Part shown: in pieces, positions 2,229-31,123 of the stretch
How positions within the stretch are numbered: the first letter of the stretch is position 1
Layout: each line of letters opens with the position of its first letter
NCBI GenBank assembly: GCA_021234155.1
Contig: JAJEKV010000046.1
Coordinates: forward strand, 7,259,012 to 7,323,011
Direction: 5' to 3'
Source of the DNA: Isoetes taiwanensis
Taxonomy: Eukaryota > Streptophyta > Lycopodiopsida > Isoetales > Isoetaceae
DNA: 64,000 bases
The notes under the pieces: model-generated
The model's input: the letters and a program-made list of their open reading frames with translations, nothing else
Databases searched by the model: none
What the model was told of the DNA's origin: nothing
Program-made: the position numbers and the translations under genes

Positions 2229-2400
2229 TTTTTGGGTTGCCCCTAAGGGGGCAAACCCTTGTTTATGTGGGTTTTTGGCATATCCAAGGTATTTGCTGGA
2301 ATATACCTAAGATATGCTGGTAACTGCTCCAAACCTATTGTAGCCTATAAATTCGCGGTCACCTGCGTTCTCGATCGCCCATGTTTCAACCGGGTAACTG
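2229..2400 (+). repeat. R1 repeat, copy 1
   Basis: It starts TTTTTGGGTTGCCCC and forms a palindrome with the following GGGGCAAACCC. It then carries GTTTATGTGGG, ATATCC/ATATGC repeats, CTGCTCCAAACC and ends near AACCGGG. Three further copies lie at 7329, 26410 (minus) and 31123 (minus). It ends about 35 bases before the ATG of a small ORF, as other copies end close to gene-fragment starts. Confidence 0.75.
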
Positions 2401-2434
2401 TGGCAAGGTTGTGTAGTTCTGCTGTCGTTCTGCT

Positions 2435-2566
2435 ATGGCGAGAGACAAAAGGGGGAAGACGAACAAAAGCCCGATTGAGCAGATCCCAATTTGCATTGTT
2501 TCGTTAGGGAAGGCCGCAGATATGGACCTGAAGAGTTTACTGCAGACAGTCTGCCTAAGTGTATGA
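2435..2566 (+). CDS. small ORF or first-exon remnant, unknown function
   Basis: A 43-codon frame starts MARDKRGKTNK and is rich in basic residues at its N-terminus. It lies 35 bases after the end of R1 copy 1. I do not recognise the protein. It may be the first exon of a captured gene, because BtaA-like exons follow on the same strand, but no clear splice donor links them. The basic start followed by a hydrophobic IPICIVSLG stretch is all that can be seen. Confidence 0.25.
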   Translation: MARDKRGKTNKSPIEQIPICIVSLGKAADMDLKSLLQTVCLSV

Positions 2567-2744
2567 CAACTGATAACTTTTGGCTTGCAGTTTTGAATAC
2601 ATTGGCCATGGAAAGATTTCATACGTTCCTTTGTTGAAGCCCCCCTATTATATTTGGCTTGGCAAATGTCGAAACATTTTTGGTGAGTTCTGAGACTAAT
2701 TCACAATTGGTTATGACAGTAGTTCTCATTCCATCATCTTATAG

Positions 2745-3104
2745 GGATGAATCCCCTACGCTTTCCTGCAACATTTCTCTACTCCTTATCATGGGAAGGC
2801 CCTCGTGAAGATGAGAAGGTTCTAGACATAGGTTCAACAGATACTGTGCTCACCTTTACTTCAGGAGGGTGCAATACTTTTGACCTCCTTCTACATGTTT
2901 CTCCTATTTTGTGTTATACTATATCCCTTGGTTTTTAGATCTATTTCTATATGAGCCCAATTCAGCTTTATTATTATTATTATTTTTCCAGGGTGCTAGG
3001 CTTGTTGTTGCAGTGGATATTAATCCTGCACAGAGCTATCTTTTGTCATCTCTTGATCCATTTGCTAGTTCGAATGAACAGCTTTTGTCTTCTGATTGTA
3101 GATG
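2745..3104 (+). pseudogene. fragment of BtaA-like (DUF3419) betaine-lipid synthase
   Basis: Two exons are visible. Exon 2745-2896 follows an AG acceptor and ends at GT; it encodes YSLSWEGPREDEKVL and then VLTFTSGGCNTFDLLLH. Exon 2 starts at 2992 after an AG acceptor and continues in frame with GARLVVAVDINPAQS. SWE-P-D, the TSGGCN loop and VD-NPAQ are the SAM-binding signature of the DUF3419/BtaA family, which transfers a 3-amino-3-carboxypropyl group from SAM to diacylglycerol in betaine-lipid (DGTS) synthesis. This lipid is known from algae, mosses and ferns but not seed plants. Only about 65 of the usual several hundred residues are present, and similarity stops after NPAQS. It is a fragment, joined downstream to exons of an unrelated flavoprotein. 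Confidence 0.7.
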
Positions 3105-3117
3105 AGGAACTACATTT

Positions 3118-29002: not shown

Positions 29003-30201
29003 CTATTGCTCCTCATTCTTTCTGCATTCATCCTCATTCTTAAATGAACTATTTCTGCGTCTTTCTGCGGCAGCTATCCTCCTACCAATAAACTTCAAGA
29101 TCTCATCTATAATTATCACTGGGAATGAGACAGCAAATACAAGAAGCCACTCATTGAAGCTTAAAGGAACAATGCCAAAGGTTTTGGCAAGGACTGGTAC
29201 ATAGAGAATAAAAAAGTGCAGGCCAAAGGACACTAATATGGCTAGAAGAAGCCATGGATTAACCCATGGGGGCATCATTAGCAGACTCCCATCCTCAGAA
29301 AGAGCATTTAGTGCATTGAACATCTCAATGACAACCAACACGGACAATGATAAAGTAGATGCCTTCATTTTCTCAACTGTAAAATAATCACAGGGTTCCA
29401 TAAATTTAAATGAATTTGACCCTGCAGTGAAGGGTGAAACCTCAAAATTTTCCCATGAGTGGCACTCTCCCTAGCTTGGCAACTGCTTGTAGGTCACAAG
29501 AGAATGACCATCACTCGAGAGATCGATTCCCATAAATGAACTTCGTGTATACCATATATCAAATACTCCAACTGTTGCAATGCCAACATAAATTCCAATC
29601 ACCTGTTTGGTCCAAACAAACATGTCAAAATCCTGCGAGATGAACAGATTTGCAATACATAAATAGAAAATCCAGAGTAAACTGGGGAGTATGCAGCTTC
29701 GGTACTCTCACAATTTCATCTTAAGTACCCACATGGCAATCTTAAAGTAATGAGGCCTTCCTAATTGTGCTTCAACTCTTCAAATCAAGTTATTTAACAG
29801 TAAGTAAAGAACATTGAACAAATGCTACTGTTGTGCCAACATATCATATAGCGAAAGAATATCCAGCAATTAATAAGATGGTCATCACTTTTTCGAGGCG
29901 ATTTTCTCATGATATTAACATCTGGAGGGTTGAATCCAAGTGTTGTGGCAGGTGGCCCATCCGTAACTAGGTTCACCCACAAGAGCTGGACTGGAATCAA
30001 TCCTTCCGGCATACCAAGGGTAGTTGTCAAGAAGATAGAAGCAACTTCTCCAACATTTGAGAAAATCATGTACCTAATAGAACAAATTCAACATCAAATA
30101 ACCTGATCTGCCAGTCATCAATAAGAAAATGTAAAAGTTACCAAATAAAAGCCTTCATGTTGTTATAAATGGATCGCCCTTCTGCAACAACTGACACTAT
30201 T
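29003..30201 (-). pseudogene. 3' exons of an ER-type Ca2+-ATPase (ECA family, P2A)
   Basis: Exons on the minus strand match the C-terminal third of plant ECA1/ECA4-type pumps. The exon ending at 30142 encodes VVAEGRSIYNNMKAFI. Exon 30073-29845 encodes [20 protein letters not shown], then [20 protein letters not shown] (the M6 region with Ca2+-ligating residues). Exon 29602-29003 encodes the last transmembrane helices ([60 protein letters not shown]). Such pumps move Ca2+ into the ER. Damage: TAG at 29473-29471 where Trp is usual, and the donor after 29845 reads AT instead of GT. No P-loop or actuator domain is present. Upstream lie histone-deacetylase exons, so this is a fragment in a chimera. 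Confidence 0.8.
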
Positions 30202-30416
30202 GTAGACATTGAAAATGTTGTAACTTTACATGAATAACTCAGTAAAAATTTAGAGTATTAAAAAAAATTGTTTCCGTGGCATTTGAAGTTAAACATCATT
30301 TAAAGGATTGCAACCATCTAAGTTGAAATTGCCTGGAGTATAGAAGCATAGCATAAAGAAATTAAAATCAAACACCTATTTTCCTTGGGCTGGAAGGACT
30401 CATACCTCGTGGGACT

Positions 30417-30841
30417 TTAAAAGTTCCAAAATTCCGAGCATGATGTCATTGACGTAAGACGTAGCAAAACCCAGATGCTTCGCACTTTTTTGCATGATGT
30501 AGTCCACCAGCCCAATTGCAGCAATATCAGCATGCCCCAAACTAAGCTTGACTGCGATTCCAATAGATCCACCAGCAGATATTTGACAAAACGGAAACAA
30601 CCCATCAAAAACTGGACAATCATCTCCCACATTAAATCTTTACAGGGCTGTGTCATGCTCATTTTGGGTCTCTGGTGTTATGCTTTTCAAAAATTCAACA
30701 TAATCTTCAGAACGGCCGATGAGGCTTCATAGGATGACCCTGTCCATAATAGTAGTTACCCACATCAGGATCATAAAAGTATGTCACTCTGCGCTTCAAT
30801 CCTTCAGGTCCGGCTGTTAAGGAATTACCACTCCCATCCAT
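30417..30841 (-). pseudogene. 5' exons of a class I (RPD3-type) histone deacetylase
   Basis: From ATG at 30841 the frame encodes [20 protein letters not shown] and then KPHR, the canonical N-terminus of plant HDA19/HDA6-type enzymes. It then jumps, with a ~40-residue gap and frame change near 30712, to [34 protein letters not shown] and YVNDIMLGILELLKSH, ending at a GT donor (GTATGAG). These deacetylases remove acetyl groups from histone lysines in the nucleus. The region that should read INWAGGLHHAKK, with active-site histidines, has been replaced by frame-shifted sequence, and a TAA interrupts near 30630. R1 copy 4 ends 107 bases upstream of the ATG; Ca2+-ATPase exons follow downstream. Confidence 0.8.
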
Positions 30842-30947
30842 GCCTTAAGACTATGTTGTTGAAAACAGGCTTCTTGGGACTTCTGTGGCCAGACATGCAG
30901 AAGCACTGACTCCATAACTGTGATTTTGACTCCGCAGAATCCGCCTT

Positions 30948-31123
30948 GCCGGTTAGGCAGTTTGCACACCGGCCGCCCAACAATGCTGGTGATCGCGAGT
31001 TTACAGGAAGTAGGAGGTTTGGAGCAGTCACAAGCATATTCTAGGGATATTCTAGGATATACCTAGGATATGCCAAAAGCCCACATAAACAAGGGTTTGC
31101 CCCCCTAGGGGGCAACCCAAAAA
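30948..31123 (-). repeat. R1 repeat, full-length copy
   Basis: The reverse strand reads TTTTTGGGTTGCCCCCTAGG, GGGGCAAACCC, GTTTATGTGGGC, three ATATCC(C)TAG units, CTGCTCCAAACC, and ends in GCCGGT...ACCGGC, a 6-bp inverted repeat. It precedes the histone-deacetylase ATG by 107 bases. Confidence 0.8.

Follow-up and report, generated by a model that had tools for sequence, protein, structure and literature searches.

The closest described relatives of the repeat R1, which is treated here in a stretch of 64,000 nucleotides from Isoetes taiwanensis (contig JAJEKV010000046.1, positions 7,259,012 to 7,323,011; hereafter the window), are the Helitron2 transposons of Bao and Jurka (2013; PMC3627910). 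In the parts of the cited papers on which this comparison draws, Helitron2 carries beside its 5′ end a hairpin containing an asymmetric terminal inverted repeat (ATIR) of 8–15 bp, and the 3′ ATIR lies about 20–30 bp from the 3′ end and is followed by a hairpin. Insertion occurs after TTTT, with no duplication for full-length ends; one-ended or truncated copies also exist, some with extra captured sequence, and in Chlamydomonas many truncated copies carry duplications of 7–19 bp (PMC3627910). Among plants, maize offers the best-documented case of Helitrons capturing genes on a large scale (PMC13317346), read-through past the 3′ terminator has been measured for the bat element Helraiser (PMC4778049), and tandem arrays of Helitrons are discussed in PMC4067079.

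Set against these systems, R1 is very probably the 5′ terminal region of a family of non-autonomous, gene-capturing rolling-circle transposons of Helitron2 type. At the DNA level, the 5′ hairpin with its ATIR, the 3′ ATIR, the 3′ hairpin and, at one complete example, the insertion at a T-run are all found; the family differs from Helitron2 as described in that no Rep/helicase was found linked to it, and in having an ATIR of 9 bp (GGGTTGCCC/GGGCAACCC), a 3′ end of CTTG/T (here and below a single stroke beside T marks the element boundary) and a cargo of host genes. With the Helentrons and HINE/DINE-1 (PMC4067079), R1 elements share a palindromic 5′ sub-terminal inverted repeat, a 3′ palindrome and a T-rich target that is not modified and has a variable number of T; unlike Helentrons, they hold pieces of host genes, and no endonuclease-bearing partner was found for R1. 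The cargo of unrelated gene fragments, the capture route by 3′ read-through and the circles that could explain tandem copies recall the maize Helitrons (PMC13317346) and Helraiser (PMC4778049), but the ends of Helraiser are canonical (5′-TC next to A, CTAG-3′), whereas those of R1 elements are of Helitron2 type.

The 5′ and 3′ termini

The genome search covered 1,658,258,908 bases in 1110 contigs, and R1 was modelled by a profile of 23 copies, the three full window copies among them, which score with E-values of 1.3e-46 to 1.6e-53. An earlier sequence-only reading of the window had already placed these three copies, with their palindromic head, correctly to within a base (2229–2400, 7330–7512 and 31123–30948). 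It had also taken R1 for an element; what stands is that R1 forms one end of an element and not the whole, its partner being a 3′ terminus (RTS) which that reading missed. The termini and complete elements of the window are:

2229..2400, plus strand: R1 copy a, 5′ terminus of a probable Helitron2-type element (profile match 153 bits)
7330..7512, plus strand: R1 copy b, 5′ terminus of complete element b (176 bits)
30948..31123, minus strand: R1 copy c, 5′ terminus of complete element c (166 bits)
26348..26409, minus strand: truncated R1 (model positions 1–63) within element c (45 bits)
8648..8723, plus strand: RTS of element b, ATIR GGGCAACCC with mini-hairpin GTGC-GCA-GCAC and CTTG/TT (79 bits)
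25398..25473, minus strand: RTS of element c (84 bits)
12278..12353, minus strand: further RTS, no R1 partner recognised in the window (79 bits)
9886..9954, minus strand: further, more diverged RTS, no R1 partner recognised in the window (37 bits)
7330–8723, plus strand: complete element b, R1 to RTS
31123–25398, minus strand: complete element c, R1 to RTS

First of all, R1 is a genome-wide repeat with a sharp outer edge. Its last 20 bases, with up to 2 mismatches, recur at 735 places, against 4 for the reversed pattern used as control, so that the recurrence of R1 proposed earlier is beyond chance. Across copies the element starts at TTTTT/GGGTTGCC; in the alignment of the 23 copies, the homology common to all begins abruptly at TTTTTGGGTTGCC, the upstream flank being also common within some groups and not in others despite common interiors. 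Most of the upstream flanks inspected are unrelated to one another. Copy a starts with TTTTT and the hairpin GGGTTGCCCC...GGGGGCAAACCC, and its sharp edge is common to other loci. A strict head pattern gave 36 distinct heads, all 36 preceded by five or more T in a row; the hairpin, which contains the 5′ ATIR as in Helitron2, stands directly after this run (fold z −1.70). When one R1 locus of 4 kb was used as the query, 30 of the 82 matched pieces began no more than 6 bases from the R1 head, and their other ends fell at many differing points. In 20 head copies inspected, the match to the reference, which takes in R1, extends 192–323 bases from the head; several groups of them then enter mutually shared bodies, and 3 have a common left flank. 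The truncated R1 had been thought to precede a plus-strand frame at 26364; since it lies on the minus strand (26409–26348), inside element c, it does not, and locus L021 holds a fuller R1 at the matching place.

The 3′ terminus consists of GGGCAACCC, the mini-hairpin GTGC-GCA-GCAC and CTTG/T. It was met in the window as a second repeat, at 8648–8723 (plus), 12353–12278 (minus) and 25473–25398 (minus), ending in ...GGGCAACCC-NN-C-GTGC-GCA-GCAC-CTTG-TT, and its core pattern, with up to 3 mismatches, occurs at 6467 places in the genome, against 0 for the control. The RTS profile was built partly from loci under test, including these three window copies, and the scan of the window with it had no shuffled control. 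With locus L034 as the query, 56 pieces matched, of which 32 break off at the RTS end or at most 16 bases beyond, and 28 of the 32 extend no further than the T-run which follows the RTS there; in the 19 of these 32 that were inspected, the ends line up with 0–3 errors across the last 15 bases. Of 29 distinct RTS copies found by a strict pattern, 28 continue from CTTG into two or more T. As in Helitron2, the RTS copies inspected carry GGGCAACCC or a near match about 20 bp ahead of their 3′ end, and this is kept in L022 and L034 although the sequence upstream differs from that of most other copies; in L029 it is degenerate. The hairpin GTGC-GCA-GCAC downstream of this ATIR, again as in Helitron2, was predicted in one of two RTS folds.

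It is these ends that make a canonical Helitron1 family with diverged ends an improbable explanation of R1. Helitron Rep genes are abundant in the genome, several loci have CTAG ends, and CTTG/T resembles CTRR/T, CTTG ends having been reported for Helitrons. Yet R1 elements possess the 5′ hairpin with an asymmetric inverted repeat, and the canonical set of 5′-TC, CTRR-3′ and insertion between A and T is absent: there is no 5′-TC, the 3′ end is CTTG, and the base before the T-run is C in 22, A in 7 and G in 7 of the 36 heads, with no fixed A.

A second head type (TTTTTTAGCAGGGTTGCCTAACCC...) was noticed at window 2079–1927 (minus strand) and at L034 2592–2736, where it begins immediately after an RTS. 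It is probably the 5′ end of another family with the same 3′ end.

Pairing of the ends and the insertion site

To relate the two termini, 19 R1-bearing stretches (L021–L035, L087, L088 and two window pieces) were scanned for RTS. The profile found it in 10, always on the strand of R1, and downstream of R1 in 9; in L033, the RTS stands 22 bases ahead of the next R1. L087 and L088 had been fetched since an RTS was known nearby, and without them 7 of 17 stretches have a same-strand downstream RTS, with none on the opposite strand by profile. Among the listed positions (173 R1 and 39 RTS), 2 R1–RTS pairs within 20 kb occur, in the right order and strand, where about 0.16 would be expected. Moreover, element c and L021 877–5152 have the whole R1-to-RTS unit in common, indels aside, with 91–98% identity in aligned blocks; the two units are 3.6 Mb apart on the same contig, and their flanks differ. 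For copy a, no 3′ terminus of its own was found up to the next R1.

Units are also arranged in tandem or joined from parts. All 8 listed R1 pairs within 12 kb have the same strand; the paired copies match over 225–650 bases from the head in L025, L026, L028 and L029, and over less in L027 and L033, and in L088 the next R1 begins within a few bases after an RTS. L034 is a chimera: its query positions 1–961 (the R1 side with a light-harvesting-like piece) recur alone at C1045 and C907, and positions 967–1991 (redoxin and RTS) recur at many other places without 1–961. These tandem and chimeric copies fit read-through past a missing or ignored 3′ terminator, together with circular intermediates.

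Direct R1 repeats that start together might also suggest a long terminal repeat (LTR), pseudo-LTR or Penelope-like element. This was rejected: by eye, the flanks of six pairs carry no duplication, copies elsewhere run past the repeat ends, and the order R1-R1-RTS is seen.

That order is seen in the L087 unit, whose two R1 copies lie at 207 and 3635 and whose RTS ends at about 4320. When its outer flanks were joined and searched as an empty site, all 40 scored matches crossed the join (453 candidates); that is to say, the R1-R1-RTS unit occupies one site. In all 8 empty sites inspected, 7 T/A bases lie between CTCATA and ATTTGG, the best one reading TTTTTTT, and in the filled site GGG is preceded by 5 T and CTTG followed by 4; comparison of the two thus indicates insertion into a T-run with no target duplication. 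At a second site, C1040, the left side was confirmed, ending at ACGTTTTT. Insertion after TTTT without target-site duplication, as in Helitron2, is accordingly recorded at one complete and one left-side site, and inspection of six further two-ended loci by eye revealed no target duplication either. The flanks of L087 are themselves a high-copy repeat (453 candidates) with many natural empty sites.

The same observations bear on a reading of R1, taken in reverse, as the 3′-terminal tail of a non-LTR retroelement or short interspersed nuclear element, with a hairpin then AAAAA, variable 5′ truncation and target-primed insertion. An exact end at the T-run (an A-run when reversed) and variable lengths on the other side would suit it, but a second exact end exists in the RTS, there is no duplication at the complete empty site or, by eye, at the six other two-ended loci, the cargo genes and an intron-like gap among them are opposite in sense to such a transcript, and the sequence of several copies passes into a body that others also have, not into a unique flank. 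Such a tail is therefore very unlikely. Nor is a Pack-type element with terminal inverted repeats, one of the options offered by the sequence-only reading, borne out, for the ends share only the 9-bp asymmetric inverted repeat and no duplication is present.

Gene cargo

The gene fragments recognised behind the window R1 copies, all in the orientation of R1 as had been noted earlier, are:

2723..2935, plus strand: N-terminal piece of DUF3419 in an open reading frame (ORF) that follows R1 copy a (Pfam PF11899, E=2.1e-12)
7687..7926, plus strand: light-harvesting-like fragment in element b (phmmer E=1.6e-4 to a fucoxanthin chlorophyll a/c binding protein; weak)
30403..30841, minus strand: putatively captured, decayed histone deacetylase (HDAC) fragment from a native-looking ATG at 30841 (phmmer to HDAC1)
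29006..30087, minus strand: putatively captured C-terminal fragment of a cation ATPase in several exon-like pieces (PF00689, E=2.2e-16 and 1e-22 in two ORFs)

DUF3419 is the BtaA family, which upholds one half of the earlier BtaA/HI0933 assignment; HI0933 was not found among the ORFs tested. The light-harvesting-like fragment has no Pfam match, and element b is 92% identical to L034 over 654 bp at this place. The HDAC match proper covers 30403–30639 (phmmer E=2e-19 to HDAC1) and is of class I, as had been proposed for the third unit, but the unit is more than that: element c joins the HDAC piece to the ATPase piece. In the latter, a gap of about 200 bases between two exon-like stretches, seen by eye, is intron-like, which fits capture at the DNA level.

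Further cargo was found in two-ended units in R1 orientation, namely epimerase/RmlD (L087), PPR (L028), CFA20 (L029) and redoxin (L034). Vps62 (L032) lies downstream of an R1 with no RTS of its own, as DUF3419 does in the window (2723–2935), and in L038 the sequence upstream of an RTS includes a methyltransferase exon; matches to protein kinase (L035) and Takusan (L033) were below cut-off. Several captured pieces are internal or C-terminal. Of the 29 ORFs oriented like R1 or the RTS, 12 gave a Pfam match (10 above cut-off), against 0 of 11 in the opposite orientation, a bias that is only indicative since the ORFs were chosen by length, with more plus-sense than minus-sense ones submitted and some perhaps outside elements. 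NCBIfam gave a single match, below cut-off, and Rfam and tRNA scans of the window gave none.

An intact-looking HDAC gene is present at C996; its open exons span Pfam positions 1–143 and 139–295 of 298, and the 7 kb inspected there contain nothing that matches R1 or the RTS significantly. The captured copy shares 74–75% DNA identity with it in an alignment that begins at ATG 30841, the counterpart of the start of this gene, and so is either old or derived from a close paralogue. The ATPase locus C919 was rejected as an intact source, as it looks like another fragment. As a separate observation, this intact-looking HDAC gene has beside it, at L090 4370–5493, three repeats of the segment found ahead of the RTS in element b (window 8334–8639), and they end where the RTS would start.

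It had also been proposed that R1 stands specially close to start codons, as would a regulatory or 5′ untranslated element inserting at gene starts; R1 might equally be a chance neighbour of ordinary genes. The fragments after R1 do share its orientation, the HDAC piece begins with an ATG of its own, Vps62 copies with R1 lie in local clusters, and the first ATG comes by median 15 bases after R1 against 28 after random positions, related copies sharing that sequence. But an ATG lies within 107 bases in 42 of 49 R1 copies (86%), no commoner than at 3461 random positions taken within the same loci (92%). Since, besides, the cargo includes C-terminal and internal pieces, the intact-looking HDAC gene lacks an R1 match, and one and the same R1-to-RTS unit is found between unrelated flanks, insertion at gene 5′ ends or mere neighbourhood is extremely unlikely. 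Nor do these results bear out the earlier suggestion that R1 may supply promoter sequence. The Vps62 copies of L032 are clustered at C1036 5.38–5.58 Mb, C1045 11.78–11.82 Mb and C819, many with R1 and its upstream flank, which suggests later segmental duplication.

Partner search, mechanism and lycophyte setting

The genome is rich in Helitron Rep/helicase genes, with 150 places listed of 1813 candidates. In total, 21 loci were examined, four of 9.8 kb (L062–L065) and 17 stretches of 5 kb (L099–L115), and the proximity of the listed Rep, R1 and RTS places revealed no autonomous partner either. Because only 21 of the 150 listed places were examined, the partner may have escaped this sampling, or it may have diverged or died out.

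In the mechanism that we envisage for the Helitron2-type family, a Rep/helicase acting in trans would nick at R1 and peel off one strand, and the 3′ hairpin would stop replication. If the terminator were missed, replication would run on into neighbouring DNA until another common 3′ end, and unrelated gene fragments, introns included, would thereby be joined behind R1 and spread. The empty site together with the shared terminator makes this read-through model testable on natural copies.

The proposal of the sequence-only reading that a gene-capturing, Helitron-like element is at work is thus supported by the sharp 5′ end of R1, the shared 3′ end, the hairpins, the many gene fragments in R1 orientation, the intact-looking HDAC gene elsewhere and, for the single complete empty site, the absence of target duplication. 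Several results weigh on the other side. Three of the 82 pieces matched by the R1 locus begin at 107–108, within R1, so the head is not present in every copy, and the hairpin folding scores are modest (z −1.70, −1.64 and −0.62). In 10 of the 17 stretches, the 2.5–7.5 kb inspected contained no RTS after R1; L028, one of the 7 positives, yielded its RTS only when the stretch inspected was extended by 10 kb; this pairing count and the RTS profile come partly from the same loci and are not fully independent; and a looser RTS pattern gave one opposite-strand match, with 3 errors, in the R1 locus L032. L087 is the only complete empty site obtained, C1040 having been rejected as a full one because its right side has no match at the other end, and the 7–19 bp duplications of Chlamydomonas Helitron2 (PMC3627910) were not seen in R1 elements. 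R1 or RTS occurs on 0 of the 21 Rep loci (21 of the 150 listed, 1813 candidates), and 10 of the 21 carry a hairpin with CTAG/T, as in canonical Helitron1, in a scan that had no shuffled control. To these the uneven sampling of ORFs must be added.

On balance, R1 and RTS are best read as a new family of a known kind, that is, non-autonomous gene-capturing Helitron2. In element names, SMo stands for Selaginella moellendorffii. Since Helitron-5_SMo is named as a Helitron2 in PMC3627910, the kind is probably already known in lycophytes. No description of such elements in Isoetes was found among the matches listed from the literature searched, supplementary files and subscription papers being outside its scope, and the word Helitron does not occur in the main text of the I. 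taiwanensis genome paper (PMC8566536).

The findings point to large-scale gene capture like that of maize, whose gene-capturing Helitrons are Helitron1 with canonical ends, but here with Helitron2-type ends and in a seed-free plant. A wider reading, which we put a little short of an even chance, is that of a lycophyte Helitron2 lineage with interchangeable ends, in which one common 3′ terminator, present at more than 6400 places, would serve several 5′-end families, among them R1 and the one with its head at window 2079. Replication that missed its own terminator would then soon meet another, so that a dense shuffling of gene fragments comparable with that of maize Helitrons would result, and many annotated genes may be captured pieces. 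In the annotation of I. taiwanensis, as far as its description in PMC8566536 goes, repeats with homology to plant proteins were taken out of the repeat library, and gene-bearing elements of the R1 family may therefore stay unmasked and be annotated as genes.

Two other features of the window were noticed. Reverse-transcriptase-like ORFs of the long interspersed nuclear element type were recognised by eye from their translations at 16332–17177 and 46782–47273, both on the minus strand. In addition, a direct repeat of 1.3 kb is present at 43364–44633 and 61679–62950, with a spacing of 18.3 kb and blocks that are 88–95% identical, and it holds a long open frame.

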